Origin: Isoetes taiwanensis
Taxonomy: Eukaryota > Streptophyta > Lycopodiopsida > Isoetales > Isoetaceae
DNA length: 64,000 nt
Reading direction: 5' to 3'
Assembly (NCBI GenBank): GCA_021234155.1
Contig: JAJEKV010000330.1
Span: forward strand, 124,001-188,000
Shown: one piece after another, positions 11,145-46,302 of the stretch
How the letters are laid out: the number at the start of each line of letters is the position of its first letter
Numbering within the stretch: position 1 is the first letter of the stretch
Notes under the pieces: model-generated
The model's input: only the letters and a program-made list of their open reading frames with translations
What the model was told of the DNA's origin: nothing
Database searches by the model: none
Made by a program: the position numbers and the translations under genes

Positions 11145-11199
11145 CACTGGCATGGTATTTTCGCTATGATAACTAAGGTTATCACAACATAAATTGTTT
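11145..11199 (+). repeat. End of 299-bp satellite unit, left of half-LINE insertion
   Basis: GGCATGGTATTTTCGC followed by ACTAAGGTTATCACAACATA and AATTGTTTTA matches the end of the satellite units at 12964-13595. The satellite resumes at about 12945, so the DNA between is an insertion. Confidence 0.75.
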
Positions 11200-11202
11200 T
11201 AC

Positions 11203-11339
<137 letters not shown>

Positions 11340-12945
11340 AATTTTAACGCCCCGCTAAAAACCCCATCGGGTTATGGGATCCAATACAAAAGAGGGGCAT
11401 AAGCCCTAACCAAAACGGGGACAAAGTCCCATTACAAAACCAAAATCCCCTAACAAGAACAAAACAATGCAAAAAAACAATACAAATACCGACCAAAGCC
11501 GAAAGGTAGGTTTAATTAGCCCAACCAAGGGTTTAGAGGCCACTGGATCAAGAATAAGTGCTCTACCGCCCGGATATATCGCCCATTTTCCTTGGAGCCT
11601 CGCTCGAACCTTGCATAACTCGGCCCCGCCACCGAAGTTAATTGAACCGGGGAGATATCCTCTTGTACCTAAAAGGAGCTCTGAAATGACTCCATGCCAT
11701 AGCACATATAACCGATCTTGGGATGTCGAATCGTATCAGAAGATGGCGGGCGGGCCGGGTCGCATTAGCACCCACTCGCCGCGACCGAAAAGTTCTTGGG
11801 CTTCGGATATGCTTAGTATCCGCGGAAACAATGTGCGCCGACTTTGGTCCGCTGTGAGTCTGCTTTTAAGATGCCTACTAGACGAGGTAGGTTCAAGAAG
11901 GTCCCCGCCAGTTGGCCTATACATGGGTTCTCGTGCTAAGCATCTGGACAGCCTGGCCGGGTTCCCCGTATGTGCCATGAGTCGCATCTTGCATTTGGAC
12001 ATCCAAATTCTTCGAATGGCGGTGCCTCCGCACTCTCTCGCTTTGGACCATGGCATCTACACGCATCGCGGTGCACGCTACTACCGGGCCGCACCTTTGC
12101 TATCGCCGGCCCGGGCACCATGGCATCCGATCACAATGCCCTCACCGCACTCATGGCATCCGATCGCAATGCCTCAGCCTATACCATGGCATCTCGATCG
12201 CAATGTGTGGGCGATCCGTCCGGGCGGCTTAATGAAGGCTAGTATGATATATGTATTCTTTCATCAAGAGCTCCAATATTTCTAGAGCTTGCTTCAACTA
12301 TCCATAGGAGCCGCACGGAATTGGCGATAATCAGAATCACACCAAACCGACCGTGATCCCCGGAGTGAATTGTAAGCAAGGGGACTCTAGTGTGGCCAAG
12401 TTTGAGGATACCAAGATGTATCCGCTGGAACCGTAGCTCCCCGTGGGACCGGAGGCCACTAAGGGACCGTGTAACGTGCGCAGGGGAGGGCCTGATATGG
12501 TGTGGCCTGGGACCGTGCTTGGGAGTTGAGGGAGGGGTGGGCATGGTGGAACCTTCCCCGTGGTTCCTCGCCATATCTTTAGCTTTCCGCGGTCATGGCT
12601 AAGGGTAGGCGTAAAGAAATGCATGTAACAAGAAGCCAAAGGGGAAAATTGAAACCGCCGGGGCCCGGCCCGCCAGAAAGTCCCCTTACGTAATCGGATG
12701 TCTTGAGGTCGGCTAACCGGGCGGGCTAACAAGTAATGTAAGCAGCTTGTGTCGAAAGCAAAATTATGCCGGCTAAGGGTTGACAAACTCGGGTCGATAG
12801 AATCTCAACACCGGATGCCTTGATGCCGGATGACATGGGTGGGCAAATGTGATAACAGATAACAAACAACAGATAACAGAGGCGGTGCTGGGCAAGATCA
12901 TGCTGAAGCAAGGACTGCGGAATCGATGGCCGAACTTGTCGATGA
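11340..12945 (-). mobile_element. Half-LINE: ORF1-like non-LTR element without ORF2 (copy 2)
   Basis: On the minus strand, frames give RVGA-AT-RPARHLLIRF (about 11730-11790) and ELCKVRARLQGKWAIYPGGR (11565-11625). These match RVGAARPDRPRHLLIRF and ELCKVREARQHKKWAVYRGG of the copy at 52569-53200. Both then run about 210-230 bp to a shared 3' end with a small AACCC/GGGTT hairpin (11360-11373) and a simple-repeat tail. The RPR-LLIRF pattern recalls LINE-1 type ORF1p. No reverse transcriptase lies between ORF1 and the tail. The element is bracketed by interrupted satellite (11199 and 12945), so its full length is about 1.6-1.75 kb. A Pro/His-rich frame at 12239-12574 may be the N-terminal part. 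Frameshifts make it inactive. Confidence 0.65.
12118..12210 (-). repeat. About 33-bp tandem repeat inside half-LINE
   Basis: Three imperfect copies of CATGGCATCCGATCGCAATG at about 12119, 12151 and 12186 are separated by short variable spacers. They lie in the presumed ORF1-like N-terminal half of the half-LINE. Confidence 0.6.
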
Positions 12946-19146: not shown

Positions 19147-20721
19147 TGTGACACACCTAGGGGTTGTGCACAAGTTAACATTTGAGTTTTTAACCATAGG
19201 TTAGAAATAATTAACTTTGAAAGAGATTATGAAAATACGATAAATACGGTATTCGTATCATGCTAGATATCTGATGGAATATCAGATATGAATAGTGAAG
19301 CTAAGTTTAGAAGATTTTATTGTTAGTTTGGGAAAAGGGAAGATATTTTCCTTTTAACCTTAGGGAGTAAGGGTATTTTAAAGGGAAACGTCTTTTTGTT
19401 TGAAATTTCTGGAGAGCTTAGCCTGCGCCATCGAGCTTAGTTACAGAAGGAGAACAATCCAAGCAGGTGGGTTAACCGGAGCCAAAACCATAAGATTCCG
19501 TGAAGACTTGGCCGCTAATGCTAGATTGATATGTTTGTTGTTGCTAAATTCACAGAAAGTATCTGGTTGTTCAAATCTGCCATTGTTGTTGTTCTTGCAG
19601 CCAGCGGATTATACAAGACAAACTCCTGTTATAAGTCTTGAAGCCGTTCCTTATCCATTCATGGTTTGATGTAGTTTGTTTTTCTTTTTCTTCCAGGAAG
19701 CCTATGAATCTACCCTGGCGGCCAAACACTTGTTCTCAGACTGAACGGCCTTGAATCCAGCTTCTATATGTCATGCAGAGAATCATTCCTTAAAATCGGC
19801 CTGAGATTTGCTTATTCCGGCCTGTTCCGGTCCTTCTCGCTAAGATCCGATCATGTTTTGCTGAGCCCATTCTGTTCTAATACGCAGTCTTAAGTCTCTG
19901 TTATACCTTATTTGAAACCCTTTGTATCGTTCTTCATCCATATTTTCTCATTTGTTTTAAAAGCCATTGGTAGCTTAGTTGGTTAAGAGTTTATCCTGTT
20001 GTTCCATAGACCCAAGTTCGAGTTTCTGTTTAAACTCAACTTTTGTCTAGCCTTTCCTTTTAAGTGTTTATAGTACCTATATACCAAGTACCCCCCTTTT
20101 ATAGGATTTCTTGCTAGTATTTAATGAATTGTTGGAACGTTTTCTATTTTGTGTTTTCTAATGCATAACATGGTTTATGTGGAATGTTAATAAGATATAG
20201 ATTAATTGTGTGAACGAACCCGCCTCCCTTGCCGGGATGAGAGGGTCGATGATAGAGCATCGTGCAATACCGTGATTGGTGTGTGAACGCAGATCCGCGG
20301 TCGCGAATCTGCATTTAATGGGAGCTTCGGCGAGGGACCCATCATCCCCGGATAACATCAATAATTGATGATGTCAGTGTGTTGTGATGTTGTGTTTCTT
20401 TTCCGTTGAAGTTGTGTTGCCATGTTGCGTTTCTTTTCCGTGATTGTCTAGACCGTGTAACGGCTGCCCACTTAGTCCTTTTTGTCCCGACTAATCCTCA
20501 TCATTTCATTCTCTTTTCTTACAGATTATTCTAGTAGTTACGGACCAAGGTTGTAGGGAGCATGAGCGATAGAAGAGATGCTATTTTTGTGTTGAATTCC
20601 TATGTAGTTCCAATTGTAACCTTGAGTTATGAATATTATTAATGAAAGATATTTATTATTCTCGGGTCCTCTATTCTCTCGTTTTTTATCTCAGTGCTTA
20701 ACGCTTCTAGGAGCTGCTTCA
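19147..20721 (+). repeat. Left LTR (1575 bp)
   Basis: TGTGACACACCTAGGGG to GCTGCTTCA. Colinear with 22241-23793 over the full length with scattered substitutions and indels. It contains a tRNA-like segment with A and B boxes (19967-20040) and ends with AATGAAAGATATTTATT, which may serve polyadenylation. The most diverged part is a GC-rich patch near 20220-20340. Confidence 0.92.
19967..20040 (+). promoter_or_regulatory. tRNA-like pol III promoter boxes inside LTR
   Basis: TAGCTTAGTTGG (about 19972-19983) fits the A-box consensus TRGCNNAGYNGG, and AGTTCGAGTTT (about 20013-20023) fits the B-box core GTTCGANT. Spacing between the box starts is about 41 bp. The right LTR has the same pair near 23060-23115, so it predates insertion of this copy. 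A SINE captured by the LTR or a decayed tRNA are the likely sources. The T-arm does not pair well, so it is not a functional tRNA. Confidence 0.5.
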
Positions 20722-20750
20722 TTTGCATCGAGCCTAGGTTCCGATCATTA
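20722..20750 (+). other. Degenerate tRNA-iMet primer-binding site
   Basis: Immediately after the left LTR, TTTGCATCGAGCCTAGGTTC resembles TGGTATCAGAGCC-AGGTT, the plant initiator-methionine primer-binding site, with several changes. Its position adjoining the LTR end supports the assignment. Confidence 0.55.
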
Positions 20751-21089
20751 ACCATTGTTTGGTTATTGACCAAGCCAATGGGAGTCATTAACATTAGAGT
20801 TATGGGAGCCAAGAAGGAAAACTTTGGGAAAGTTATCTAGTCGAGATATTAAGCGTGGTCGAGGGGGGCAAGGGAGAGCCCACCAAGCTTCAAATGGGAG
20901 AACTAGAAAACCCAAAACCAAGGCCAAATACCATTCTTTGAACATGATAGATCCTATGAACCTCCCGAAGGATAGATGTCATGTGATTAGATCACGTGTG
21001 TATTCTCTCGAGAATGAATTAAAATATGTTTTACTTGTGTCAACCATTCCATTAGCACTAACCTTATGTTAAGGATTGACTTAGATTGT

Positions 21090-22000
21090 CTTCTAGAACT
21101 CTAACAAACTTGCTAAGGTGGATTATAGATTAACATGGAGGGAGGTGATGACAACGCCACAGAAGACAAATGCTAGGTCAAATATCGCAAGGAGTGCAAA
21201 AGCAGCTGGGTTTGCTCCGAACCGTGATGTGTCATTTGCAAAAAGATCCCGTTAGCCCGGACGAGATTAACAAGATCCTTCGCAATGTCAAGCAAGAACG
21301 ATTGACGGGGAAAGGATACCACAGCATGATGCGATGCGCATTTATGGCTCCGCGGGGCATAGAATTCTATTTTAGCGTAAAGAAGACGCCGAAAAGCGTA
21401 AAAGTCATATCATGGATTTGTTACTCACCGCCTATGCTAAGATTTGGTGGGACGATTATAAGAAGATCCATAAGCTTTTACCTTTGAAGATATTGACGGA
21501 TGTGTTCCGTGAAAGCTTTTCAAACACATTACCGCATGGGGATATAGATTGACGAAGATGCATGATTTCTTGAATTTTGCTCCAAACAAATTAGGTTGAA
21601 GATTATCTGCTAAGTTCCAAAGAATTGCAAAATTTTATGGACCTCCCGCTCGAGCCGTAAACGCTAGCCGATAAGTATATTAAGGGTTTGAAGCCGAAAG
21701 TTAACTGCTCTAATTGGAGGTGTTACATATCCTAGCTTTGGGTGAAGCGATTAGAGTCGCTAAGTATAAGGAAGAAGTATTGGCACAAAGACAAAAGAAG
21801 CGTGCAAATGATGATATAGGTTGGAATCGGGCCCACAATCACGACAACGAAGTTGAGGATATTTTGACATTGAAAAATATCAATAGCGGACAATGCCAAC
21901 TGGGCGTAAAAGTTAAGGGCTAAGTTATTTCGAGAACGAAGTGTTTTTATTGCCACCGGTGGGTCATCAAATGAGAGATTGTCCCCGGAAGTTACAAGAA
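21090..22000 (+). pseudogene. Retrotransposon gag (decayed)
   Basis: Frames include HIMDLLLTAYAKIWWDDYKK (21406-21465) and LTDVFRESFSNTLPHGD (21496-21545), typical of the Ty3/gypsy capsid domain with its paired Trp. VEDYLLSSKELQNFMDLPLE follows near 21600, and LADKYIKGLKPKVN near 21665. A zinc knuckle KCFYCHR-VGHQMRDCPRK (Cys-X2-Cys-X4-His-X4-Cys, 21937-21993) needs one frameshift. The protein would package the element RNA. Stops and shifts make it a pseudogene. Confidence 0.75.
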
Positions 22001-22230
22001 CATCGATTCGATGGCATATCCAATCCTACGGTGGAAGTACTCTAGAGGATAACCGAGGTAAACAACCCATGCATGCTCGAAAGCAATTACCATTGAAGAT
22101 CACACCAAGAGTTCAGAAAGGCGTGCATGTGCACCACCGATGGGAATCCACCAGAGGGCCCAAGCTAGTATGATTTGTGTTCCACGTAAGTTTGAGAATC
22201 TTTCCATGAGGACATGGGTAAATTTTTAGT

Positions 22231-22240
22231 GTGGGAGAAA
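22231..22240 (+). other. Polypurine tract
   Basis: GTGGGAGAAA lies directly before the right LTR, where the plus-strand primer for reverse transcription is expected. Confidence 0.65.
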
Positions 22241-23793
22241 TTAGACACACCTAGGGGTTGGTGCACAAGTTAACATTTGAGTTTTAACCATAGGTTAGAA
22301 ATAATTAACTTTGAAAGAGATTATGAAAATACGATAAATACGGTATTCGTATCATGCTAGATATCTGATGGAATATCAGATATGAATAGTGAAGCTAAGT
22401 TTTAGAAGATTTTATTGTTAGTTTGGGAAAAGGGAAGATATTTTCCTTAACCTTAGGAGTAAGGGTATTTTAAAGGGGAAACGTCTTTTGTTTGGAAATT
22501 TCTGGAGAGCTTAGCCTGCGCCATCGAGCTTAGTTACAGAAGGAGAACAATCCAAGCAGGTGGGTTAACTGGAGCCAAAACCATAAGATTCCGTGAAGAT
22601 TCTTGGCCGCTAATGCTAGATTGATATGTTTGTTGTTGCTAAATTCACAGAAAGTATCTGGTTGTTCAAATCTGCCATTGTTGTTGTTCTTGCAGCCAGC
22701 GGATTATACAAGACAAACTCCTGTTATAAGTCTTGAAGCCGTTCCTTATCCATTCATGGCTTGATGTAGTTTGTTTTCTTTTTTCTTCCAGGAAGCCTAT
22801 GAATCTACCCCTGGCGGCCAAACACTTGTTCTCAGACTGAACGGCCTTGAATCCAGCTTCTATATGTCATGCAGAGAATCATTCCTTAAAATCGGCCTGA
22901 GATTTGCTTATTCCGGCCTGTTCCGGTCCTTCTCTGCTAAGATCCGATCATGTTTGCTGAGCCCACTTGTTCTACGCAGTCTTAAGTCTCTGTTATACCT
23001 ATTTGAAACCCTTTTGTATCGTTCTTCATCCATATTTTTCATTTGTTTTAAAAGCCATTGGTAGCTTAGTTGGTTAAGAGTTTATCCTGTTGCCCCATAG
23101 ACCCAAGTTCGAGTTTCTGTTTAAACTCAACTTTTGTCTAGCCTTTCCTTTTAAGTGTTTATGAAGTACCTATATACCAAGTACCCCTTATAGATTTCTT
23201 GCTAGTATTTAATGAATTGTTGGAACGTTTTCTATTTTGTGTTTTTCTAATGCATAACATGGTTTATGTGGAATGTTAATAAGATATAGATTAATCAGGT
23301 GAACGAACCCGCCCTTCGCCGATGCCTGAGGGGTCGGAGTTAGAGCATCGCATAACACCCGTGATTGGTGTGTGAACGCGGCATCCCGTCGCTAACGGTA
23401 ATGGAGAGCCCCGGGCGAGGGACCGATCATCCTCGGATAACATCAATAATTGATGATGTGTGTTGTGATGTTGTGTTTCTTTTCTCGCTGAAGTTGTGTT
23501 GCCATGCGCTTTCTTTCCCATTGTCTAGACCGTGTAACTGCTGCCCACTTAGTCCTTGTCCCGACTAATCCTCATCATTTCATTCTCTTTCTTACGCATT
23601 ATTCTAGTAGTTACGGACCGCTGAGCGAGGGAGCATGAGCCATAGAAGAGATGCTATTTTGTGTTGAATTCCTATGTAGTTCCAATTGTAACCTTTGAGT
23701 TATGAATATTATTAATGAAAGATATTTATTATTCTCGGGTCCCTATTCTCTCGCTTTTTTTATTCAGTGCTTAACGCCTAGGGAGCTGCTTCA
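22241..23793 (+). repeat. Right LTR (1553 bp)
   Basis: Colinear with the left LTR. It starts TTAGACACACC, two changes from TGTGACACACC, ends GCTGCTTCA and is followed by the target duplicate AAACA. The tRNA-like boxes are retained near 23060-23115. The region 23300-23420 is strongly diverged from its partner. Confidence 0.92.
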
Positions 23794-26239: not shown

Positions 26240-26665
26240 CTCCTAACATAGTGGTAAATCATTACAATCACACCACACAACACAAGTAGTTCTCATCACC
26301 CATTATACACCGTCAACACACAACATACGACAGACAAGACACACCACAACAACACTGTGGTGGTGGTGGTGATGGTGGGGTGGTGGTGGTGGTGGTGTGT
26401 GTGTGGTAGTGGTGGTGGTGTGGTGGTGGGGTTTGGTGGTGGTGGTGGTGGTGGGGTATGGGTGGTGGTGGAGTGGTGGTGGTGGTGGTGGGTGGTGGTG
26501 GTGGTGGTGGTGGTGGTGTGGTGGTGGTGGTGGTGGTGGTGGTGGTGGTGGTGGTGGTGGTGGTGGAGGTGGTGGGGAGTGTGGCATGGGGAGATGGTAG
26601 ATTTGTAGTGGCGGGATATGGGGCGTGGGGGACATGGTGGGATGCCAACGCATCCCACCACCACA
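26240..26665. repeat. GGT/CCA low-complexity block with strand switches
   Basis: 26264-26355 is CA-rich (ACCACACAACAC), then 26355-26580 is (GTG)n/(GGT)n with a pure run of about 20 triplets near 26520-26565, and 26650-26665 returns to CCCACCACCAC. The order C-strand, G-strand, C-strand is opposite to the block at 15700-16455. ORFs up to 141 codons here are His/Pro/Thr or Gly/Val/Trp runs without coding meaning. Confidence 0.85.
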
Positions 26666-31737: not shown

Positions 31738-33936
31738 AAGAAAGAGTAGCCCATGCAAGAAGAAGCCCCTCCTCCGCATGAGATCAAAGAATAGAAGCCA
31801 TGGATACCGGCCGAGATGAAAAAAGCCCGGATGAAACGCCGATGAAGAACTCGCAATAAATAGCGATCCCCCAACCCCGATGAACGGCCTAAAAAATGTG
31901 GGCGCGATGCATGCATGCGACGCACGCAATGCATGCATGCTCGTCTTGTGCAAGAATGTCGATCCGCTACGCGAATCAATGACATTATTGTAATGTCTTT
32001 CTTTTTTGTATGTTTCCTTAATTCGTTTGTTGGTTATGTGTGGAAGAGGTGATCTTCAGGTTTATCAATGCAACGTGGCAATGTGAATGGAACGTGCCAT
32101 TCATAGATTTGTGCCTAGGGATTATTTGTTTGTTCAACACAAAAAATCAATATGGATTTTTCCAAGATTGTTCTTTTGTTTTATGTTGTTATTCTTTCTT
32201 ATCTGGACTTTGGGCCTGGCATAGGCATTTAAAAATGACGTTACAATATAAACAATGTGCCTTACATAGAATGGCACGTGGATCCTGAATCATTCTAAGC
32301 CTGAATCCGGAATCATGCTAAGCCCATCTGCATCTAGCTATGCAGGCCTTGTCTTCCTGCAAAACCAAGAATGAAACATTTCTAGGGTCTCCCGCCCACT
32401 AGAAGCCCATGGCTCTCAATCTGCCCCGTACATCATGACTACCAGTACACAAGCCACCCCTTGCTGGGAAAGGGGAGCGCATGCCCTGCTACATGTTAAG
32501 CAAACTACCACAAAATCTTCAAAATAATTGCAGACGGATTATGAGGAGTTGCTCCACTCAATAGATCTTATTCTTGCCAACTCCTGGCATCTGCTCAAAG
32601 AAAGTTTACAGCCTAGTACTAATAATGGAAGCAGCGTCTTCTTCTTCCTTACCATAGTACTATAGAAGAGCATCACTTCTTTCCAGCCTTTGCCTTTTTG
32701 CCCAGACTTTAAAGATCCCTTCCGAAAAATGTTCTAGCAAAGGTTTCTGTACTAGCAGTGCTCTCCTTCTTCCTTAGGCGGTGAATACTATAGCTATGCT
32801 TACATTGTTTTCCTGAAAACTGTATGACCTTCTCCCAGTCGGCATACTAGAAGTAACCAAGAAAAGATATATCTTAAATACAGCTCCTCCCCATAACCTT
32901 GGCCACTAACCTGAGGCACAGCTCCCCTGACCGGAAATCTTGTGGAAGATGCTGAAATATGCAGCAGAAAACCAGGTATGCCGTCCTTGCCAAGCAACAC
33001 AGAAGCCCCTGGATCGTTAGAAGCTGAAAGATAAGGAAGGAAGGCTTTCCTGATTAGTAGCACAAAAGGGAACAAAAGAGTGGAAAAACCCAGCTGCATA
33101 GAACCGATTCCTGCAGCCCTGTTATCTGAAGTGCAGATCCCTAATGGCCCTCCAGCAGCTTGCCAGAAAACGACTCACCAAGCAACAGAGACGGCCACAA
33201 CCGTCTCCTACTTTTCGGCCAAGAACTTGGCCGCCATCACCGGCCCGTTTTCATCCACTTTTTCCACTATTTTGCTGGATTTTGTTTTAAAAGTCTAGAC
33301 ATAGATGTGAATGGAAAATTATTTTAAGGTTATTGAAAAGTTAAGTGAACTGAAGCTGAAGTGCCCAATACCAAAATGAAACGAAAGCGTAACAAACATG
33401 TGTCGAGTTGTGATGCAACAAATGTAATGGCAAAACTCCATTGCAAGTTTGTATATGTGGTTGCACCTTTTTAACCCAAGAGCTAGAACGCCAAAAGCTG
33501 CAACTATAGTAGATGTAACTTTAAAATTTAAGGAATATGCAATCTACCACAGAAAAAGAGCTACAACAGCCTAACTCATGGGGATGCCATAGTCTCATGA
33601 GGATGTCACAGTTTAGTTGCATGATGAGGAAATAATACAATAGAACATACCCTCTAAAAGTTGTGGTGCATTATCACCACCACAACAGCTAGCAATGGAT
33701 AAAACAAAAGGCTTGCATATGCGGCAAACAACATTGAAAGTTGAGTTTCCAAAACGCATCTATCTACCATTGGAAAGTAGCCTCCCAATACTTAAGACAG
33801 AACTTGCCTGTATGCTTCAAATAATCTTACCTCATAAAGGATTTGAAATAGAAGTCGAAGAATTGGTGCTTGCAGTTGTTGTTAACATCAGTCGTGCCCA
33901 TTTCCTTTCCACAATAAAATCATCTCCAAGCACACG
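31738..33936 (+). repeat. 2.2-kb tandem duplication, unit 1 (uninterrupted)
   Basis: Starts AAGAAAGAGTAGCCCATGCA. It contains the ATGCAT module (31795-31985), a block to 33095 shared with 34190-35260, and a block from 33096 shared with 45441-46302. Its internal junction CCCAGCT|GCATAG at 33095/33096 is the empty-site counterpart of the 10.2-kb insertion in unit 2. ORFs within (e.g. 32800-33099 minus) recur in unit 2 but show no recognisable domain, and the pattern of differences does not suggest coding constraint. Confidence 0.88.
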
Positions 33937-35381
33937 AAGAAAGAGTAGCCCATGCAAGAAGAAGCCCCTCCTTCGCATGAGATCAAAGAATAGAAGCAAT
34001 GGATACTGCTGAGAGATGAAAAAGCGTCGATGAAACGTCGATGAAGAACTCTGCAATAAATAGCGATCCCCCAACCTGATGAACGGCCTAAAAATGCATG
34101 CGATGCATGCATGCGACGCACGCAATGCATGCATGCTCGTCTTGTGCAAGAATGTCGATCCGCTACGCGAATCGATGACATTATTGTAATGTCTTTCTTT
34201 TTTGTATGTTTCCTTAATTCGTTTGTTGGTTATGTGTGGAAGAGGTGATCTTCAGGTTTATCAATGCAACGTGGCAATGTGAATGGAACGTGCCATTCAT
34301 AGATTGGTGCCTAGGGATTATTTGTTTGTTCCAAGATTGTTCTTTTGTTTTATGTTGTTATTCTTTCTTATCTGGACTTTGGGCCTGGCAGAGGCATTTA
34401 AAAATGACGTTACAATATAAACAATGTGCCTTACATAGAATGGCACGTGGATCCTGAATCATTCTAAGCCTGAATCCTGAATCATGCTAAGCCCATCTGC
34501 ATCTAGCTATGCAGGCCTTGTCTTCCTGCAAAACCAAGAATGAAACATTTCTAGGGTCTCCCGCCCACTAGAAGCCCATGGCTCTCAATCTGCCCCGTAC
34601 ATCATGACTACCAGTACACAAGCCACCCCTTCTCGGGAAAGGGAGATGATGCCCTCGCTACATGTTAAGCAAACTACCACAAAATCTTCAAAATAATTGC
34701 AGACGGATTATGAGGAGTTGCTCCACTCAATAGATCTTATTCTTGCCAACTCCTGGCATCTGCTCAAAGAAAGTTTACAGCCTAGTACTAATAATGGAAG
34801 CAGCATCTTCTTCTTCCTTACCATAGTACTATAGAAGAGCATCACTTCTTTCCAGCCTGCCTTTTGCCCAGCCTTAAAGATCCCTTCCGAAAAATGTTCT
34901 AGCAAAGGTTTCTGTACTAGCAGTGCTCTCCTTCTTCCTTAGGCGGTGAATACTATAGCTCTGCTTACATTGTTTTCCTGAAAACTGTATGACCTTCTCC
35001 CAGCCGGCATACTAGAAGTAACCAAGAAAAGATATATCTTAAATACAGCTCCTCCCCATAACCTTGACCACTAACCTGAGGCACAGCTCCCCTGACCGGA
35101 AATCTTGTGGAAGATGCTGAAATATGCAGCAGAAAACCAGGTATGCCGTCCTTGCCAAGCAACACAGAAGCTCCTGGATCGTTAGAAGCTGAAAGATAAG
35201 GAAGGAAGGCTTTCCTGATTAGTAGCACAAAAGGGAACAAAAGAGTGGAAAAACCCAGCTAAGCACGATTTCATTAATTGGAGAAAATAAGCCCATTTTG
35301 AGAATTTTAAGCACACCTAATTTGCTCTAGCACGAATACTTTCACCTACTTCTCGAGCACAAGAAACATGAGGTAATTAAC

Positions 35382-35428
35382 ATACACATATACATACAAA
35401 TACACATATACATACACATACACATATA
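35382..35428 (+). repeat. CATACA/TACACA microsatellite
   Basis: About 47 bp of CATACACATATACATACA type repeats close to the left terminus of the 10.2-kb element. Confidence 0.8.
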
Positions 35429-35461
35429 CTCGTAGAAGCTCAATAATGGCCCTACATTGTA

Positions 35462-35715
35462 CACCAATAATTCACATCAATAATTTAACTTCACTATAAA
35501 AACGGCTTGACGAGGGGTAGAGGCCATTCATCTTCCATGGCTTCCTCGATGCCCCTTCGAGCACATCCGCTCTTTCAAGTGTTACTTGAGCTACAACGAT
35601 CCGGGCTAATGCGCTTAGAAATGGCGTTAAGCTTGATCCATGGCTCTTATCTAAAGCCGATGGACACCGCTTAGTGCTTGCGAGGAAGCTCACTTTCGTG
35701 TTAAAGTCCACATTT
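35462..35715 (+). promoter_or_regulatory. Promoter cassette 1 in the 10.2-kb element
   Basis: CCAATAATTCACATCAATAA, then ACTTCACTATAAAA (TATA box about 35490-35503), then ATGGCTTCCTCGATGCCC at about 35539. The same order with about 75-80% identity recurs at 36062-36150. Downstream of this ATG the frame is broken. An oppositely oriented ORF over the area (35472-35711) is probably a shadow. Confidence 0.55.
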
Positions 35716-36061
35716 CGGCTTCGATCGGGGAGATCTATGAGTGAATGCCATCCACGAGCTTTGATGTTGATGACGAAAGTGAATGACCGCTAATAATGTA
35801 ATAATGACATGGGTACCTAATAACTAAGTAAGGATGTAATAGCATTACGATTAAGGATGTAATATCACGTACCTTAAGCGAGTATATTGTAACGATGTGC
35901 TATCCCACCTCCACTTTTTACGCAAGTCGTCATTGAATTCAATCATAGCTAAATTCGGCAAGCAAACATGTTTTCAAACACACGATATACTAGTATGAAA
36001 TAAGTATTATTCTTGTACGTATATAACGATACCGATACACGTTCAATAATGGTGAACTCTA

Positions 36062-36323
36062 CCCCAATAATTCACCTCAATCATTCCACTTCACTATAAA
36101 AGCTTCTCAGTTCGGGGCTACATTTCATTCATCCCCCATGGATTTCTCGCCTTCTTCGATTCACCACATTGAGGCGATCAAGTGCTCAATGAGCCACGCA
36201 GATCTTGTTGGTTGCCTTGACAGGCATCTTCTTCTTGATCCCTACCCTGAAGAAAAGCTTTGGGCGAGATTCATTGCCCAAGCGTCAATTAGGTGTTATG
36301 ATCCATCTGATTTGGCTTCCTGA
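36062..36323 (+). CDS. Promoter cassette 2 and short ORF (61 aa)
   Basis: CCCCAATAATTCACCTCAAT, ACTTCACTATAAAA (TATA about 36088-36101) and then ATG at 36138 opening a 61-codon frame to 36323. Residues include MSHADLVGCLDRHLLLDPYP. The upstream part is a duplicate of cassette 1, which argues that this is a genuine core promoter in the element. The peptide could be a complete small protein or the first exon of a longer one. No family is recognised. Confidence 0.35.
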
Positions 36324-36516
36324 GCGCATGAGCTATGAGATATCAGGGATCACTACTACAAATCCTGAAGATGAATGAATCACCTGTTTGGCATTGTATA
36401 GTGTAAGAGCTCTTGTGTTGAGATGAAAAACACAAAGCCTAATGAATAATAACTAGTCTATTGTAAGGTGCATGTCATGTATGATATAGTAATTATGTAA
36501 AAGAGCATTGCATACC

Positions 36517-39220
36517 TCAAGAGTTCTCATCCTCGTCGTTAGCTTCTTTAGCCACCAATTCTTGCAACTGAGACCTCACACTACTGGGGATCACTGCTGA
36601 CAACGGCCTGGTCCCTACGGCCCAACCATAGTCTATCGTTTTCAAATGTTGGTAGCGTGGTGGGTCATTAGGATTCGGTCTCCAATTCTTGCTCCAACAA
36701 TCCCTATACTGCATTGCATATGAGGTACCCTTTCTTTGCAATGGGCTCAAACCAAGAAACAAACACCTCTTCATAGTGAGGGAGATTAGGGTCCTCTACT
36801 GGGTCCTCTTCCGCAAAGGCCATCCACGTCGGGCAGTTATCATGTGGCCTGATCAGCAAGAGCATTCCTTTCTTCACATCTTGGTAGGGGTCGAATATTT
36901 CAACAGGGTTCTTGGGTCTACCAGAGAAAGGCCCGACATAATGAGATGCACCAATGTGTTCATCCACCAATAAGTTGTCGGGTTCTTCTAATGCGGTTTA
37001 ATGCAGTCTTTGGGCCGAAATCGAATGACAGTTCTACCGGGTGAACGTCCCCAAGCACTTTCGCAACAAAAGGTGGACCAGTAGTCAATAACTTCATTCA
37101 TATATGTGTTAGACCATGAGTTATCGCCGGCTCTAGAAATAGCTGCCTAGTGCATCATGTACTTGGCAATTGAAGCTCTCAAGGCACCTATATCTGTCAA
37201 GCTCTGATATGGCTGCACGACCTTAGGTGACCCTCTAGGAATCATAGGTAAGCCTTGGGCATCCTCCTTCCACATTTTAATTCCCTTTTCAGGTAGCCAC
37301 TCCCTATGCCCTGGCCTCATCTTGTAGAACATTAGTGGCCATCCATCATTCATGCAGAACTTGAAGAGTAGAGGTTCCAAATGACCACATAAGCGGTCCT
37401 TCTTATCGGGGATAAAACCTTTCACGAATTCTTTCGGTTGGGAACCTCGGACACAAGGTAGGGCGTAGGAGACTTTGAACTACACTTTGCCGAAGAGTTG
37501 CATAAGCTCCGAATAGTCAATGCATCGATCTTCTCAGCAGAGTGGAGTAGTTTCCAAAGAGGGCATCTATGTCATCGTGGGTGTGTCCAACCATCATGAA
37601 TCCCGGTTGCACTGATCGAAGACACCTAACGGACCAAATATGACAAGTAAGAGAAAAAGATACCTGTTCTTGTTTTGTCACGAGCAATTGTCTAGGCAAG
37701 CAAGTAAAGCCTCCTAGGCAACTTCTTTGGTATCAGAGGGCCCTTGATAGGAGGCATAAAATCATTTCTAGTGCCATTCACCATTTTTGTCCTAAGGGCT
37801 TCCGTGTTCATAATTGCTCCACCCCAGCAGCTCCCTTGATGATCTGTATTTCTCAAATGACCCCAGTTGTCCTCAGATTGATTCTCTAGTGTTTTCAAGG
37901 TATGATTTAAAGATCCCACATGAAAATTCGAATCATCTGGCCAGAGGTCCAGCGAGAAGTGCCCCAAAGCACCTACACCATGCCCATGCATGAGAGCACC
38001 AGTAAGACTCACCTTCAACCGTTCACCCCTCCATACAGATTTTGCTAGCTTCTCCAGACGAGGAACCATCGTCTTATTCTGATCCATCTTATCATGTATA
38101 ATGGTTAAGGCATTTCAAGGAGATCGATGAGACAAAGCTCTCCACGACCCGGTAGAGACTCCTGCAGGAAAGTTGGGCTGTCATGTGAGATTTCCTTTCC
38201 ACGGCGAGCTCTCTTCTTTCTCTTGGATCTCTAGTCTTGGCAAGTTTCTCCTTTATCACAATACAGGTATTACACTTAGAAAATGCTATTCTTTTGGCGA
38301 TTGCTACCTCAGAGTGGTTCTCCTTCCACGTTGACAAGAAGGACGATTGAGAAACATGTTTTCCTGTCATGTCGTGGGCGGTTATATCTACCTCTTGATG
38401 AATGTCCTTTTTAGTCAAGATGGAAGGTAATCTCTTCACATTTTCTCTAGTTCCCCCTTTCGTAACCTTTGGCGGTGTGGCATAGTTTGACATTCTCATC
38501 TATGTACATAGATAGCCACGGCACCTCCGGCCGATTGTATGAGACCTTGGCTTCATGGACCCGGAGTTTCCATGCTCCGCAATCCTGTGCCCTTCCATGA
38601 AAAGCTTCCTCCATTTGTAAAATGTAGAAACTGGTATACCGTATGCACTATGCCATGCCTTCACACAGACTACCCTGTTGTTCAGCATTAGCTTTTTCAC
38701 ACATCCATTCTACGAACAAAAAGATCTAGCATGTTATGCGCAAAAAGTCGTGCGTTACGAGCTTTTCATGTTCGATAGAAGGTCCTCATGGCGGATATCT
38801 TCTTTAGCTGTGAAATTAGCACAACATCTCTTCAAGCGACACATGGAGGGACTGAGCGCAAGATAGCTTGGTGTGGTTTTCCTTTCACCTTTTTTTTTTT
38901 GGGGTCGGCGTCCTCTGCGCCTTCTGTTCACCATGTGGTGCTTGTCTTTTTTTGTTACTCCAGCCTCGGGCACGGCGGCATAAGCTTCCTTCGACCTCGG
39001 TCTCCTTCCGCGGCCGTAACTAGGCTAAGCTGGAATATTGTCAGCGAGAACCAATGCTATTGGCCATCTCACCAAGTCATGCATCGTGGCATTTTGCACA
39101 AGCAGCTTTGTGAGCATAGTAATCTTCTCGGGCATTGGCAACAAATTGGTCTGAAACCCCTATCCATGCTTCACCCAACTTCATATCCGGATCTGACATC
39201 GTTTGGATCTCGAAAGCGAT
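36517..39220 (-). pseudogene. DUF7869-like transposon protein gene (frameshifted)
   Basis: Read from about 39220 down: basic low-complexity linker NRRRRGRRPQKKKGERK (about 38920), Cys-containing segment near 38830, helix-turn-helix-like GIPVSTFYKWRKLFMEGHRI with HGNSGS (38540-38640), SKCNTCIVIKEKLAKTRDPR (about 38220-38280, Cys-x2-Cys knuckle), HDKMDQNKTMVPRLEKL (38030-38090), GHGVGALGHFSLDLWPDDSN (about 37930-37990), the hallmark MVGHTHDDIDALFGNYSTLL (37530-37590), and a Trp-rich C terminus (QYRDCWSKNWRPNPNDP, 36630-36700) ending at 36517. This order matches the DUF7869 protein family from memory. About six frameshifts and a few stops interrupt it, including one between the overlapping ORFs 36517-36774 and 36704-36970. 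Located in the 10.2-kb TIR element. Confidence 0.65.
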
Positions 39221-40800
39221 GATTTTTTGTAGCATAAGCGGTTTGCGACTTTTCGTGCATTAACTCACATGTCTTTTCCACTAGTTTATCCCCGCAAATC
39301 CCACGCAATTCAATTGGTTCATTGTTTCCTTCCGGGGAGTTTCTTTGGAACTTGCCAATTTATCCGTTTGATCGACGGTGGTGTGCTAACATCGGTCTTT
39401 GGAGTGATTTCATCATGAGCGTAAACTTTTGGACCAAAGAATGAAGCTACCTTGACCTCCTCTAGGTGGTTCAATTAAAACTACGGAAGCGGCGGTGGTA
39501 TCGCCCATCAAAGACAGCGACTAGAGAAACTACTATCAATTAAATCGACGCGCGGGGCGTTGTGGTGATTTTTGAAGTTATGCACTCGCCCTCGACCACC
39601 TTCTTCCCCAGCGGGTAGAAAGGCGTAGAGCTTCCATCTGAATAAAGTCAACAACGCTTTCGTCAACATCGCGATGGCGTCGTTGGACCTCATTAGAAGA
39701 AAAAAATGCGTACTCAAAGACCCAAAGGGACAACATAATACCTCGGGGGAAGATCGCCAAAGGGAAGGCGATTCTCTTGAACACATGGGTATAAATGGCG
39801 GAAGCACAAGACAGCGGCGGTAGGGGAGATGGCGGCGGCGATCCATCCGACCTCTATGGTGGACCTTCAATCCTTCAAATCTACCTAGAAACTTTGTCTA
39901 ATCTAACTAACCATTTAAAAACCACCTATCTACTAGACTTACCTCGAAAGATGCATAATCGCGATTAATTTGAAATAATCTGTGTCGCTATATAGCTGCT
40001 ATGCTCGGGATGAGCGCGTCGCGATTCTTTCATGGAACATCCAGAGCGGTGGCCCGAGCAAAAATAGATGCTTGAGTAAGTCTACGCCAAATCAAATGTC
40101 TATGTGAATATTAATTTAAATTTATTATTTCCACAGCGAAAATTGCTGTCAGTTAATTAAAATGGAGATCTCGTGAATTGAGCATTTGGGAGCAAAACCA
40201 TTAGCACTACCATTAAGCGAGAACCATTATATTACCGTGATATTCCCTCACTATCAATTAGTCCAGAAATAAACAATTCAATTGGGCCTCGCTAACCGGA
40301 TTATGGGATCCACGAACGGCATATACCAAGAAAGAGATGGTGCATATGTTGTTATGGTTGTGAGGGCACTATTATAACCTATACATAAACAACAAATCGA
40401 AAATCTCTCACGAGATTCGACAACTTCTAGGCTATTTGGATAGGCGGTAAGGCATTAGGATTTTGTACCCGGTAGCTTAGAGTGAAGGCGCCTTCAAGAT
40501 GAGCACTATAGCCCGATGGCGGATCGAGCGCCTCAAAAAACCAACGGCGCCCGGACGAGAAGAGCGGCGCCTTCGAACACCTGCTTTCGATTACAAAGCT
40601 GGAAATCCCGCCCTCTTCATCGGCCTTGAAATTCAGGTTTAAAATTTGAAATCGAGTTGTCTCTTCGGGCCTTCAACCGGCGCTCGGAGGCGTCTTAATT
40701 ATGGTTAGTAGGGCCTTTATTATGTACATTTTTTGAATTTGGAGGTGCGACCGGAAGTACCTCTTGTCAGGAGAATGCCACGTTTACAATAAAGTTGTTG
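39221..40800. other. Central part of 10.2-kb element, no recognised gene
   Basis: GC content rises from about 39500. A 120-codon minus ORF (39508-39870) has an overlapping alternative frame and no motif. Sequence 40440-40700 is rich in GGCGCC/CGGCG. This may be the divergent promoter region between the minus-strand and plus-strand genes of the element. Confidence 0.4.
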
Positions 40801-40805
40801 TGTGT

Positions 40806-40861
40806 CCATTAATACGGGCTGCATTAATGGTGGGTATTTATGAATGCGGCCGTATTAATGG
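40806..40861. repeat. 20-bp-stem hairpin
   Basis: CCATTAATACGG at 40806-40817 pairs perfectly with CCGTATTAATGG at 40850-40861, and the stem continues GCTGCATT/AATGCGGC with one G-T pair, leaving a loop of about 17 bp. A third related ATTAATGG sits in the loop. It lies near the middle of the 10.2-kb element. Confidence 0.8.
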
Positions 40862-41179
40862 CTGCCATTTATGGCGTGTCGGCTCATGCGTGCGGATTAA
40901 ATTAATCCGGCTTCCAGGCCGATATTTATTCTCGCGATCCCTTGGACTTTCATTAGCCCGGCGATTTCGGTGGCCTTCCGCGATTCCAGCGCCGCCTCCT
41001 CGGCGCCTTCCACCACGGTCGAAATCAACCCGTTTTCGAAAGTTTCCAGCCCGGCGATCCATGGCACCAAAAGCCCACCTCGGAAGGTTAGTTCCAACCC
41101 CTCGGCTCGAAGGGTCGCGGTAGCGATTTCTTTCGATAGTGCATGTTCAATTAGACTCTTCACCTTACCGTAATGTAGT

Positions 41180-44100
41180 CATTAGAAAGTGCGGAACTCA
41201 AGGAGGATGCTGCTCGGTGGTCGGACGGATCGGCGTCGCGATCTGCTGATTGCTCGGTAGCGGTAGCGGCGCGATCGTGTTAGTGGTCAACAACATCGCG
41301 GTCGCGATCTTCTTGACTTGACTCACCACTGCCGGCTATTTGCGATCTTCTGAATCACTCATGAGGATGCGGTCGCGATAAAATCAAAGCGATGATTGGC
41401 GCATCACGGAAGAACTTGTGCATTACGGAATCTTGACCCACTTCTTACTTGCGACTCTGGATTTGTATCAGCGGCCGGACGTTGAACCCAATAAGATCAT
41501 CACACCTTCAAATGAAAGAAAGTGGTGTATAGAAATTGCGGCGAGGCAATTCCACGGACGAAAGCGACCGTAGTAAAGACCTCTGCTTGTTCCTCGGGGT
41601 GGCAAAGCCGATGACATCTCAGCGGATGGGAATTGCAATCGCTATGTGGGAAGGAACAAAAACAATGTCAAAGGCGCTATTATATGCGGCGTAGAGGACA
41701 CCACGAGAATTTGCGGTTCATTGAGTATGTCCTTAAATGGACAAACTATGATCCCTCGCTCATGGCGGCTAGCAAATTAAACAAGCCGATCCTTTGGAAA
41801 GAATGTTGGCCGGTCACGAAGGATCTGGTGAGTCCCTCTGAATCTGTCTCACATGCGGAATATCCGGGCAATAGGGATATATTGTCGGCTTCTCGACATC
41901 ACGAGAAAAGGTTCTTGAGCGGATAAGAAACCACCTAGCATTGCTTTGAAAGCTAAGCGAGATGAGAAGATGCCTTACGTAATGGACACGAATTGGTTAA
42001 GGGCTCGGTGAAGAAAAAACATGTGAAACTGTATCTATAGGGAGGCCTCTAGAACCCGAGCCCTCTCGTTGAGCTGTTTCCTTTGCCCAACCATCTAACG
42101 TTATAGATCTGCTCAACCTCGGCTATTTGTGCTCCCCCTCATTGCCTAAAGATTCTACCATCCCAAAGTTCGGAATCAAACTTCGGCAAACTCAATACTT
42201 CGATAAATGAGAACCTTCTTCTTCCAACAAGTCTCGGGTCTTTGATCGTCCAAGAGGCTAGCATTTCCTATTATACAGGCTGCAAGGCGGACCTCAAATT
42301 CAATCAAGAAGAAGCGCAAATTGCTTGAACAATTCAAGCGGTTCTATCCGGCTTGGTGTGGCCCCGGGTTTATGAAGGTTTCAATATTCGATTGCGAACC
42401 AGCTCACTGCTAACCTCACGCGCCGAATGCGTTCAAAGCGACCCGTCGCGGACTCTCGTGAAGAGTTTCAAGGCGTATCCTACGGAGGTGCTCACACCGA
42501 TGTTGTCCCCGCCGACCCCATTACCGGTGATTGTTATTGTTCATGATTTACGGTTTGTGGTACATCTAACTTACAAGTGCACATTATTTAGGAAAAAGAT
42601 CACATGGAGTCTGAGAGGATGACTTGAAGGGCAAGAAATTTTGGATAATATCGGTAACCACGGTATATGTGCGGCTCAATTTGCTATATTTGTATTGTTG
42701 GAGAAGCGGGAGCGGCGGATGGGTTTGCTAAAGCCTCTGGCGAGGAGAAAAACAAGAGTGCTTAGCGGAAACTTGGCCAGATAGAATATATTGAGTTGAG
42801 CATTGATTGCAATGAAGTCGCCGCTAACCTTGTATATAGAGAGCCATTGTTAGAGAAGCTTCATGACTCACGACATCAACATAAAAGCGTATGGTTGTCC
42901 TCCTCAAAGGTCCCATTGAATGCGCCACCACCTCGGCATGGAAGGTATTTTTATTATCTTTGCTCAAAGACGCCCGGCGATTTTCCCTAACCATTTGTTT
43001 TGTAGGACTTCCACGAGATAGCTACCACAGCGTTGAAGGTGAAGGAGCTAAGGGCGAAGCAATTTATTTTTATGGAGGAGGCGGGTGTTGAGAAAGTTAA
43101 TGGAAGTAGCCATGGATGGGTCAACAAGAAGATTTGTGATGAGCATGGAGATTTTCACGATAAGCCCTCGAAGGACTTCTTCAACAAAACCTGGTTAAGA
43201 TACCTTGAGGCATGTCTATCACGAGAGGCTTCTCGGCTTCTCGATGAGATTTTGGAAGGAAAGACATATCGTTAAGGTGCAAAGCGGATATCATGGCAGG
43301 TTTAATTGCGGGCGCCATTGATATTAGAAGCGACCTTCATGCGGAAAGAGATTTTGTCATACGCATCCGCGCTTGCCGGAAAGATTACACATTTTGGGAG
43401 GAGTTGCTTTTCGACTTTCACGATTTCCGGAACGGTGGTTACGGATATATCGATTCGGATCTGATACGTGAAAGCAAATTACAATAAGGAGCATGTTGTG
43501 GGTAATTTGCCGTTGCATTTCTAGAACCCATTAGATCGATTTTGAAACCTGAAGAGGCTATAAAGATCAAGGAGAAGAAAAATGTTGTGCATCTTTGTAA
43601 CAAAGGAAGGGATTCCCACCTCCCACTCCGATTAATGCGAGAATGCAACTATGGTGTTCATAGACTTTAGAGGATTCTGCATTGTGGGCGTGCAAGAAAT
43701 ATATGGAACTCTTCACAAGAATATCCGGCATGACAATTTGCTAATATTTATCACCTTGTCATTCTAATGCGGTGCGAATTTGCGTTTGCTTATGCGATAA
43801 AAGCAATTCAAGGCGGGTCCCATATTTCTGTAGGTACATATGACGAGCGGGATGGGTGAACAAGAAAGGGTGAAGGAATATCGATATTACATCACCCATA
43901 TGTGCGTGCTGAAGCGACTCGGGGTGAGCGATAATGCGGGCTGGAGCTTCGTTTGAAACCGCAGTGTGTACTGCACCAAAGAAAGCGCCCTTGCCACCAA
44001 TGCATCGGTGGTAGCGAAGATCTTGATGAGAAAATGAAGAAGAAATGGCGGACATATTTCCGCGGGTAAACCCGGTACAAGTTTGGCCGGAATGGAAGGT

Positions 44101-45060
44101 GAATACGTGATGAAGTGCGGATAGAAGACATCATATGCCTACTACACGGTTGACAAGCTTGTGCGAAGGATAGTTGTGTTCTTGATTTCTTCTGGCCAGT
44201 GCTTGCTCTCATTGTCGTGTCCTTCTTGCCGGGGAAAGAAGAGTATTGCTTTACCGAAAGCGAATTAAAAAGTGTGCCGATTTACGAGGGCTTTCTTGGA
44301 TAAGCTTCGAAAAAAAAATTCGAACGGTATTTGGGGAGGCAGATAGCGAGGATAAAGGCGAGAGCGAGAATGATCCTCATCGCGATCAATTTAAACATTA
44401 CCCAACGAGCGGATATATCTAACATCGATTCAATCTTGGATCAAATGGATGAGAAAAGCTACGAGGAAAGAATCACGGGAAGCGAAAAGACTTAGGAGGC
44501 TAAAGAAAGGTATTCTTCTTGGCTTGGGCCGATGTTTCAAAAATTAGGGGCTCTAAATGAAAAAATTGATGCCTACATGCCTTTTTTGACAGGCGGTCCG
44601 GAGTTCGAATCGTAGGTATGGTCGAGGGACCTGCGGATCAAGAGGGTGAGCCATCGGGCACACAAGAGCATCGAGGTTCGGCAAAGAAAAAAAAACCAAA
44701 CTCTTCCATGCACCCAGATATCGCATGTCTTTGGCGAGTGAAGCCTTGGATGTCGAAGGACCCCCATGGAATCTTGACGACGAAGGACCGGATCCCATGT
44801 CCAACTCCTTGCTTGAGGCCATGTACGTAGAAATCCCGGATAAACAGGCTACTTGAGATGGACCCGAGAAGATGTTTTACAAAGGGGCGAGGAACATGTA
44901 GCTAGGATAGGCTGGCGAGAGCTCGGTGTTGTACACGAGGCGATGCTCGGAAACCCGGATGGACTAATTTACGCCCATATGGCAAAGAAATGTACATTGA
45001 AATGTTTGAGGAATACAAATTACAATGCTTTGAGTTTACTATTTGGTTATTTTGTCTAAA
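41180..45060 (+). pseudogene. Unrecognised plus-strand coding remnants in 10.2-kb element
   Basis: Protein-like frames with few shared features: NLRFIEYVLKWTNYDPSLMA (41707-41766), NKPILWKECWPVTKD, KLHDSRHQHKSVW (42858-42895), a run 43033-43275 (AGVEKVNGSSHGWVNKKICD, WLRYLEACLSREASRLLDEI), 43293-43487 (RKDYTFWEELLFDFHDFRNG), and an acidic tail with coiled-coil-like residues around 44290-44580. Short matches such as FLEPI near 43520 recall SIN3 corepressors but are too few to rely on. It is probably the second gene of the element, oppositely oriented to the DUF7869-like gene and broken by many frameshifts. Confidence 0.35.
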
Positions 45061-46302
45061 CATTCCTTCCCACGACAACTCACAATGTTAAGCCACCGCG
45101 ATCCTCATTATCACTTTCAATTCTTTTTTATCCATGTGAAGAGCTTAGCGGAATTGTAATATTACATCCATGGCTGCCTAGGCAGCTTCAAATCTTCGCC
45201 GTGGCGATCCTGGCTGAGTGTTTTCACTCTTTCACGTGGACCGCTCTTGCTCAGAAGGAACTTAGGATAGCCTTATACATGTCCAAATCGGATCGTCGTC
45301 ATTGTTTGTGCCCAAAAGCGGCGGAAAAAAGCGATCAACTTTACTCGGTGCAACCATTTGCGGTGTTTTATAACACCAAGAACCTATTTCATGCTAAGCG
45401 AGAATTAAAATTCTCTAATTAATTAAATCGTGCTTATTTTGCATAGAACCGATTCCTGCTGACCCTGTTATCTGAAGTGCGGATCCCTAATGGCCCTCCA
45501 AGAGCTTGCCAAAAAGCGACTCACCAAAAGCGAGGCGGCCACGGCCGTCTCCTACTTTCGACCAAGAACTTGGCGCCATCACGTTTTTTTTTTTTTTTTT
45601 CATCCACTTTTCCACTATTTTCTTTGGATTTTGTTTTTAAAAGTCTAGGCATAGATGTGAATGGAAAATTATTTTAAGGTTATGAAAAGTTAAGTTAAGT
45701 GAATTTGAAAATTTGAAGTGCCCAATACCAAAATGAAGCGAAAGCGTAACAAACATGTCGAGTTGTGATGCAACAAATGTAATAGCAAAACTCCATTGCA
45801 AGTTTGTATATGTGGTTGCACCTTTTAACCCAAGAGCTAGAAGCCAAAAAAGCTGCAACTATAGTAGATGTAACTTTAAAATTTAAGGAATATGCAATCT
45901 ACCACAGAGAAAAAGAGCTACAAACGACCCTAACTCATGGGGATGCCATAGTCTCATGAGGATGTCACGGTTTAGTTGCATGATGAGTAGGAAATAATAC
46001 AATAGAACATACCCTCTAAAAAGTTGTGGTGCATTATCACCACCACAGCGACTAACAATGGATAAAACAAAAGGCTTGCATATCGCGGCAAACAACATTT
46101 AAAGTTGAGTTTCAAAAACGCATCTATCTACCATTGGAAAGTAGCCTCCCAATACTTAAGGCAGAACTTTTTGTATGCTTCAAATAATCTTGCCTCATAA
46201 AGGATTTGGAAATAGAAGTCGAGAAGAATTGGTGCTTGCGGTTATTTATTAACATCGATCGTGCCCATTTCCTTTCCACAATAAAATGCATCTCCAAGCA
46301 CA

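Follow-up and report, generated by a model that had tools for sequence, protein, structure and literature searches.

Sola elements belong to a little-studied superfamily of DNA transposons. According to the part of a review devoted to them, they encode a three-aspartate (DDD) transposase, make 4-bp target duplications and end in inverted repeats of 11-1124 bp; their sizes are mostly 2-9 kb, with some over 15 kb, and they are present in moss and seemingly uncommon in flowering plants (PMC10741241). The section describing Sola1-1_Ec32 of Ectocarpus places a ParB-like protein and methylase on the strand opposite the transposase (PMC12477816, which cites the earlier reports Iyer 2011 and Petroll 2025). 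For Sola2 of amoebozoa, the corresponding section gives AT-rich 4-bp duplications of the form AWWT, namely ATAT, AAAT and ATTT (PMC3627910). Here, these systems are compared with a 10-kb element found in a 64,000-nucleotide stretch of the lycophyte Isoetes taiwanensis (contig JAJEKV010000330.1, positions 124,001 to 188,000), which is called the window throughout.

The 10-kb stretch is an old, no longer intact copy of an abundant plant DNA transposon. It would represent a degraded copy of a two-gene transposon of the cut-and-paste type, in which one gene (gene A) carries DUF7869, a Pfam domain of unknown function, and the other (gene B) is transcribed away from it. The core of our reading, a DUF7869 transposase in an element of Sola type that makes 4-bp duplications, is given a probability of about 0.8.

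Ends and target duplications

The element proper occupies positions 35261-45435. Its ends are inverted repeats with 23/25 matching positions, or 92% complementary over the 26 nt of 35260-35285 and 45411-45436, and this pattern was absent from 100 shuffled sequences (0/100). The repeat scan upheld the bounds and the 25-bp repeats of the original prediction, which had been made from the letters of the DNA alone. The ends and the insertion site comprise:

33092-33095, unstranded: unoccupied target AGCT of the sister tandem unit, which is uninterrupted at 33095/33096
35257-35260, unstranded: left 4-bp target site AGCT, present on both sides of another copy (C103) at the same site and once in the empty sister
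35261-35285, plus strand: left terminal inverted repeat, starting with AAGCACGATTT
45411-45435, minus strand: right terminal inverted repeat
45436-45440, unstranded: ATTTT replacing the right AGCT duplication, read as a secondary change from flank comparison with the sister unit and C103

The uninterrupted sister unit proposed earlier is real. After its AGCT, the sequence runs on at 33096 without the element, and the flanks of the window element are 98.4% (left) and 90.9% (right) identical to it. Copy C103 is inserted at the identical base of the identical repeat unit and reads AGCT, element, AGCT, with flank identities to the window element of 94.0% on the left and 88.6% on the right. The two copies may derive from a single insertion that was duplicated together with the host repeat, or they may be two insertions at one site. 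The tandem units are spaced by ~2.17 kb at window positions 31904-35259 and 45441-46300, with the element inserted in one of them.

The 1,658,258,908 bases of the genome (1110 contigs) were searched with a 26-bp end pattern. As the original prediction had supposed, the ends are shared by other copies: 986 forward and 1061 reverse matches with at most 3 mismatches were found genome-wide, the reversed-pattern control giving 0. This suggests a family on the order of a thousand copies, if both ends are kept in most of them. Among the 100 end places listed, 12 convergent pairs lay within 13 kb of each other, including the window element. Ten of the other 11 were examined, nine of them 10.1-10.4 kb long and the tenth, with an internal deletion, 4.6 kb; a 12-kb pair on C908 was left out. 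Pairwise identity between the copies, the window copy included, is 86.5-96.4%.

A perfect 4-bp duplication flanks all of the ten non-window copies (10/10: ATAT, AAAT, AGCT, ATAA, ATTT, ACAT, AATT, AGAT, TGTA and AAAT), and half of these duplications (5/10) fit AWWT. The original prediction had seen no target duplication, had taken ATTTT for five extra bases and had considered a non-standard integration chemistry. The bases are there, but they are not extra, as they stand where AGCT belongs; for the family, the other two claims fail, since it makes ordinary 4-bp duplications. Because the right flank is more divergent than the left and C103 has AGCT on both sides, ATTTT is read as a secondary change, and the missing right duplication is most likely a later mutation or an assembly error in the window copy alone. 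Integration of the window element without a target duplication, suggested by ATTTT rather than AGCT at its right edge, is hardly credible next to the AGCT on both sides of C103 at the same site, and the ten perfect duplications rule out such a mode of integration for the family. The other copies also rule out a TA duplication of mariner type, the TA..TA at the ends of the window element being a palindrome artefact.

Gene A and DUF7869

Gene A is broken in the window copy, where its longest open frame does not exceed 147 amino acids (aa). Its remains are:

36520-39660, minus strand: gene A, transposase-like, with an N-terminal part, a helix-turn-helix (HTH)-like region, DUF7869 and a C-terminal part (tblastn with open reading frames of copy C1037)
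38503-38709, minus strand: HTH-like segment (PF13384, E 0.0013, below the Pfam cut-off)
37398-38108, minus strand: DUF7869 region with the motifs DKMDQ and GHTHDDID and a damaged LQLDN (its broken pieces match PF25273 with E 3.6e-9 and 3.8e-5; tblastn E 6.7e-101)

The DUF7869-like gene of the original prediction is therefore present. The minus strand of better-preserved copies matches PF25273 with E 5.4e-45 and, weakly, HTH_23 (E 0.0018). The proposed link between DUF7869 and defined ends is strongly supported, as DUF7869 peptides occur in 10/11 same-ended copies and in two further families. The check proposed there, whether intact copies always encode the domain, came out positive for these ten; the exception is the internally deleted 4.6-kb copy C334 (L027), which kept its ends and an AAAT duplication, has no more than a piece of gene A left, and lost DUF7869 and the palindromes described below. 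Among the chosen open reading frames that were scanned (20 of the window element and 7 of better copies), none matched a known transposase family.

The two further families have different ends. For family 2 (L042-L044), the end on the DUF7869 side was determined from 20 copies and three loci with differing flanks, and the terminus CTTGTT is found in 22/23 end sequences. A complete copy of ~8.05 kb (L066 and L043) has AATG on both flanks. In a blind test, ten family-2 elements were taken from the list of gene pairs described below, and 600-bp stretches were inspected at ends predicted from the gene positions only. Both ends were found at 5/10 loci, all five with equal 4-bp flanks (CTTA, TCTT, TAAA, AATA and TAGC). 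Family 3 (L045 and L067, ~9.47 kb) has one inverted-repeat pair flanked by CTAC in an exhaustive 22-mer scan allowing up to 6 mismatches. In total, a 4-bp duplication is present in 10/10 copies of the window family (the window apart), 6/6 two-ended copies of family 2 and 1/1 of family 3. The terminal repeats of the three families begin with AAGCACGATT, AACAAG(A/G)TTG and AACAACGT(T/C), with a common AA..A-like pattern. Two local features were also observed in family 2: an inverted repeat with 277-nt arms (L042:2243-2901), possibly a separate miniature element, adjoins its end, and retrotransposon-like polyprotein frames were seen by eye at L069 (C908:19949500-19953500), where a left end was expected.

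A genome search for DUF7869 returned 9903 candidates. The 150 that were scored all had E below 1e-45, and none of the 14 control genomes searched gave a match (0/14). Twenty regions were taken, 18 of which (18/20) have a frame with the filter motif, and together with the earlier loci they can be sorted by identity into about five groups. Across 12 chosen sequences (alignment A2), several of whose frames run through a probable intron, conservation extends to the motifs D(G/K)MDQ, LQLDN and GHTHD.ID; in L083, the first motif has a substitution at its first aspartate. Beyond this genome, the GHTHDDID motif occurs in 14 bacterial or archaeal contigs and has 0 matches in viral contigs, where a search for relatives by protein gave two stretches that fit a pattern, none confirmed. 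A sequence search of the PDB with DUF7869 yielded five matches, all beta-lactamases, the best at E 0.082.

Purifying selection was seen on both genes. For gene A, L043 and L042 differ by a non-synonymous divergence (dN) of 0.10 and a synonymous divergence (dS) of 1.04, a ratio of ~0.1, and closer pairs have ratios of 0.27-0.38. For gene B, the non-synonymous (pN) and synonymous (pS) proportions of differences between subfamilies are 0.20 and 0.77, the latter saturated. Judged from these sequences, selection seems to have maintained the two genes during the divergence of the families.

Based on the anatomy of the element, DUF7869 is very probably its transposase. The 25-bp ends would be bound by the HTH-like N-terminal part of gene A, and DUF7869, through the aspartates of D(K/G)MDQ, LQLDN and GHTHD.ID, would act as a DDD nuclease, integrating the element with a 4-bp stagger; catalysis is what we infer from these motifs. 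DUF7869 could instead be a passenger or accessory domain, the true transposase acting in trans from another element, as the broken state of the window copy and the persistence of C334 with ends and duplication might indicate. This is quite improbable, given that it is the one domain recognized with strong significance in all three families with different ends, that gene A is under purifying selection with conserved aspartate motifs and that no known transposase domain appears in the scanned frames. A Pfam domain without an assigned function thereby gains a probable one. Thousands of DUF7869 candidates lie in one lycophyte genome, and annotation could count them as host genes.

Gene B and the palindromes

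Genes A and B were observed together with the ends. Methylase genes and DUF7869 form 22 pairs within 15 kb, against 0.4 expected (150 x 150 scored matches), one of the 22 being the query's own element. Twenty of the 22 are divergent, 18 of those at a spacing of 5.3-6.05 kb, and shifted controls gave 0, 0, 0, 0 and 2 pairs. For gene B of the window clade, 22 pairs with ends were found within 13 kb among the 100 end places listed, and 22/22 have the expected orientation. End pairs cover 18/102 window-clade gene B matches (shifted controls 0, 2, 0 and 0), three of which are copies already examined, namely C101 (the query), C920 and C1037. Both pair counts apply to the matches listed and are to be read as association rather than frequency.

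The divergent frames that the original prediction saw beside DUF7869 and left unrecognized are what is left of a single gene, which is collinear with a ParB-like and DNA methyltransferase gene. Its features in the window are:

41427-44939, plus strand: gene B, broken, collinear with the ParB-like and DNA methyltransferase accessory gene (tblastn)
42570-43136, plus strand: ParB-like region (tblastn E 8e-31 to copy C920)
43648-43698, plus strand: putative place of methylase motif IV, reading TMVFIDFRGF, which is not D-P-P-Y-like
44166-44252, plus strand: place of methylase motif I, VLDFF..., altered in the window copy

Open frames of gene B reach 678 aa in other copies or relatives. Its family-2 and family-3 versions have a region of the form YVLGG(N/T)HS...GLTDEEAK...HN.DNE, with P for L of GLTDE in one frame, followed by a methylase region with DLPYG or DIPYG and LDAFSGSGTT, which we take to be methylase motifs. 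This region matches PF01555 (E 2.7e-16 and 5.4e-15) and, in family 2, also phrog_67 (5e-17) and CcrM (5e-10); a PDB sequence search with family-2 gene B gave no match. In the window family, F-I-D-(I/F)-R-G stands at the place of motif IV and FFSAGTAS at that of motif I, and both recur in a relative ~68% identical over whole frames. Single BLASTP comparisons of the window family with the methylase gene gave E 0.097 for the ParB-like piece and E 0.006 for the methylase piece, and hhalign of C920 with the family-2 ParB-like region was weak (E 0.0085, probability 4.7%). From its sequence, gene B would encode a ParB-like DNA-binding protein fused to a DNA methyltransferase whose motifs look canonical in families 2 and 3; in the window lineage, the methylase is probably degenerate.

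The stretch between genes A and B holds a palindrome that differs from family to family: GATCGCGNNCGCGATC in ten copies of the window family, GTGTATTCCGGAATACAC at three family-2 loci and GGTATNAATTNATACC at one family-3 locus. In the window, three sites are found:

39828-39843, unstranded, intergenic: near-palindrome GATGGCGGCGGCGATC, 2 mismatches to GATCGCGNNCGCGATC
41228-41243, unstranded, intergenic: palindrome-like site GATCGGCGTCGCGATC, 2 mismatches
41294-41309, unstranded, intergenic: palindrome CATCGCGGTCGCGATC, 1 mismatch

The sites are clustered. Across the ten full-length copies, 62/69 sites with up to 2 mismatches to GATCGCGNNCGCGATC lie in the intergenic gap of ~1.6-1.8 kb, and a few lie inside gene B; the 4.6-kb deleted copy has none at this threshold. 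With up to 3 mismatches, each full-length copy has 3-14 sites, where mononucleotide shuffles average 0.15-0.55; the copies are related, so their sites are not independent, and the motif was picked after inspection. Several palindromes are 34 bp apart in C1037 and C79, and family-2 sites are often ~42 bp apart, near four helical turns (among the places listed, e.g., C21, C37 and C54). Genome-wide, exact matches to the palindrome GATCGCGGYCGCGATC number 533 on the forward strand (controls 0 and 1), and GTGTATTCCGGAATACAC is present 2585 times (control 0), counting all sites inside or outside these elements. Copy C1037 (L021) has an internal tandem duplication of ~230 bp (90% identical, element positions ~4205-4653), which doubles one palindrome pair. 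On C6, C208, C212 and C878, window-family palindromes are paired at 1.30-1.32 kb, suggesting a second repeat family or a variant with the same palindrome.

As to binding partners, the gene B protein may well bind the 16-18-bp palindrome array of its own family and mark, methylate or regulate its own element; taken alone, the link between gene B and the palindromes has about an even chance of being correct. The palindromes could also be only promoter or transposase-operator elements unrelated to gene B, a serious contender for this part of the reading, though a little short of even odds, since in all three families they sit where the divergent genes share their promoter region. However, the sequence is particular to each family, which would be expected if it served self-recognition, and a few sites also occur within gene B. 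ParB-type proteins recognize palindromes of ~13-16 bp, which likewise counts against a pure promoter or operator role. If gene B does bind them, a self-recognition system in the style of bacterial ParB-parS can tentatively be imagined, at rather less than even odds: protein and palindromes would diverge together, each family would mark or silence only itself, and the window methylase, selected but devoid of catalytic motifs, would act by binding only. The printed idea that the Sola ParB-methylase binds and modifies its own transposon now has named candidate sites in three families, and a lineage in which the protein is kept and the methylase motifs are lost would let binding and methylation be separated.

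Elsewhere in the window, a second tandem duplication with a spacing of ~3.09 kb lies at 19188-23313, and runs of the simple repeats (TAGA)n and (TGG)n at 11168-11371 and 26361-26584.

Comparison with Sola and other superfamilies

Several other groups of transposons differ from the element in their target duplications. Tc1/mariner elements duplicate TA, while the duplications found here are 4 bp long and variable. The TTAA of piggyBac, Kolobok and Sola3 is found in none of the ten window-family duplications. Duplications measure 8 bp for hAT, 2-3 bp for CACTA and 3 bp for PIF/Harbinger. Those of Mutator are 7-12 bp in the overview given by the review (PMC10741241). These four are rejected by the 4-bp duplications and by the lack of any such Pfam domain in the scanned frames.

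In comparison, several features of Sola recur. All three DUF7869 families have 4-bp duplications, with repeats of 22-26 bp and sizes of ~8.05, 9.47 and 10.1-10.4 kb. Three conserved aspartate motifs are seen in gene A by alignment and are candidates for a DDD triad. A ParB-methylase gene lies opposite gene A in families 2 and 3, with a strong methylase match and weak matches for the ParB part; in the window family, a collinear gene of weak similarity lies on the expected strand. Because this gene pair is printed for the algal Sola1 and Sola makes 4-bp duplications, the element looks like a land-plant Sola-type transposon rather than one with a new chemistry, and on these features its placement is probably closest to Sola1.

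Several points weigh against this reading. The likeness to Sola was drawn from published descriptions, and the RNase-H-like fold of DUF7869 is putative. C334 persists without DUF7869, L042 departs before the common family-2 end (1/23), and the blind test found a single end only at 5/10 loci. The ParB-type matches of families 2 and 3 are weak (TIGR03764, E 0.041; DUF6551, E 0.0086 and 0.034), and the family-2 frame of L044 has no Pfam match. Four longer gene B frames of the window lineage do not match PF01555 at E up to 1, and one window-family copy matches it weakly (E 0.015). In a profile comparison, the places of motifs I and IV align in the right order with weak scores (motif I, E 0.003, probability 10.7%; motif IV, E 0.26, probability 0.2%).

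DUF7869 might also define a new superfamily apart from Sola, with an unrelated DDD or RNase-H-like transposase whose 4-bp duplications would be a coincidence and a ParB-methylase gene shared by exchange. In its favor, no Pfam transposase model matched the scanned pieces of gene A, no paper on DUF7869 was found in the literature searched, which did not cover Repbase, and Sola is known here by description alone. Yet the gene pair, its opposite orientation, the 4-bp duplications, the size and the aspartates all fit the printed Sola, which makes a separate superfamily unlikely.

With the Sola-type reading, likenesses and differences can be set out system by system. ParB of the ParABS/KorB type acts with palindromic sites, and here too a ParB-like protein is encoded beside short palindromic repeats, its candidate binding sites. 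As far as the section on it goes, Sola1-1_Ec32 shares the 4-bp duplications and probably the DDD transposase (both stated for Sola), the large size and the ParB-like and N4/N6 DNA methylase gene opposite the transposase (PMC12477816). It differs in being algal and 21.5 kb long, versus 8-10.4 kb in a land plant; the window lineage has a degenerate methylase, and that section does not mention palindrome arrays. Sola2 of amoebozoa, in the section describing it, resembles the element in its AT-rich 4-bp duplications, short inverted repeats and length, but its accessory gene is Fanzor1 instead of a ParB-methylase, and AWWT describes only 5/10 duplications here (PMC3627910). Most parts of the element thus match a little-studied superfamily, and what is unusual is the partner gene together with the family-specific palindrome arrays. 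DUF7869 as a transposase domain, the palindrome arrays as candidate binding sites and the lineage with a degenerate methylase appear to be new.

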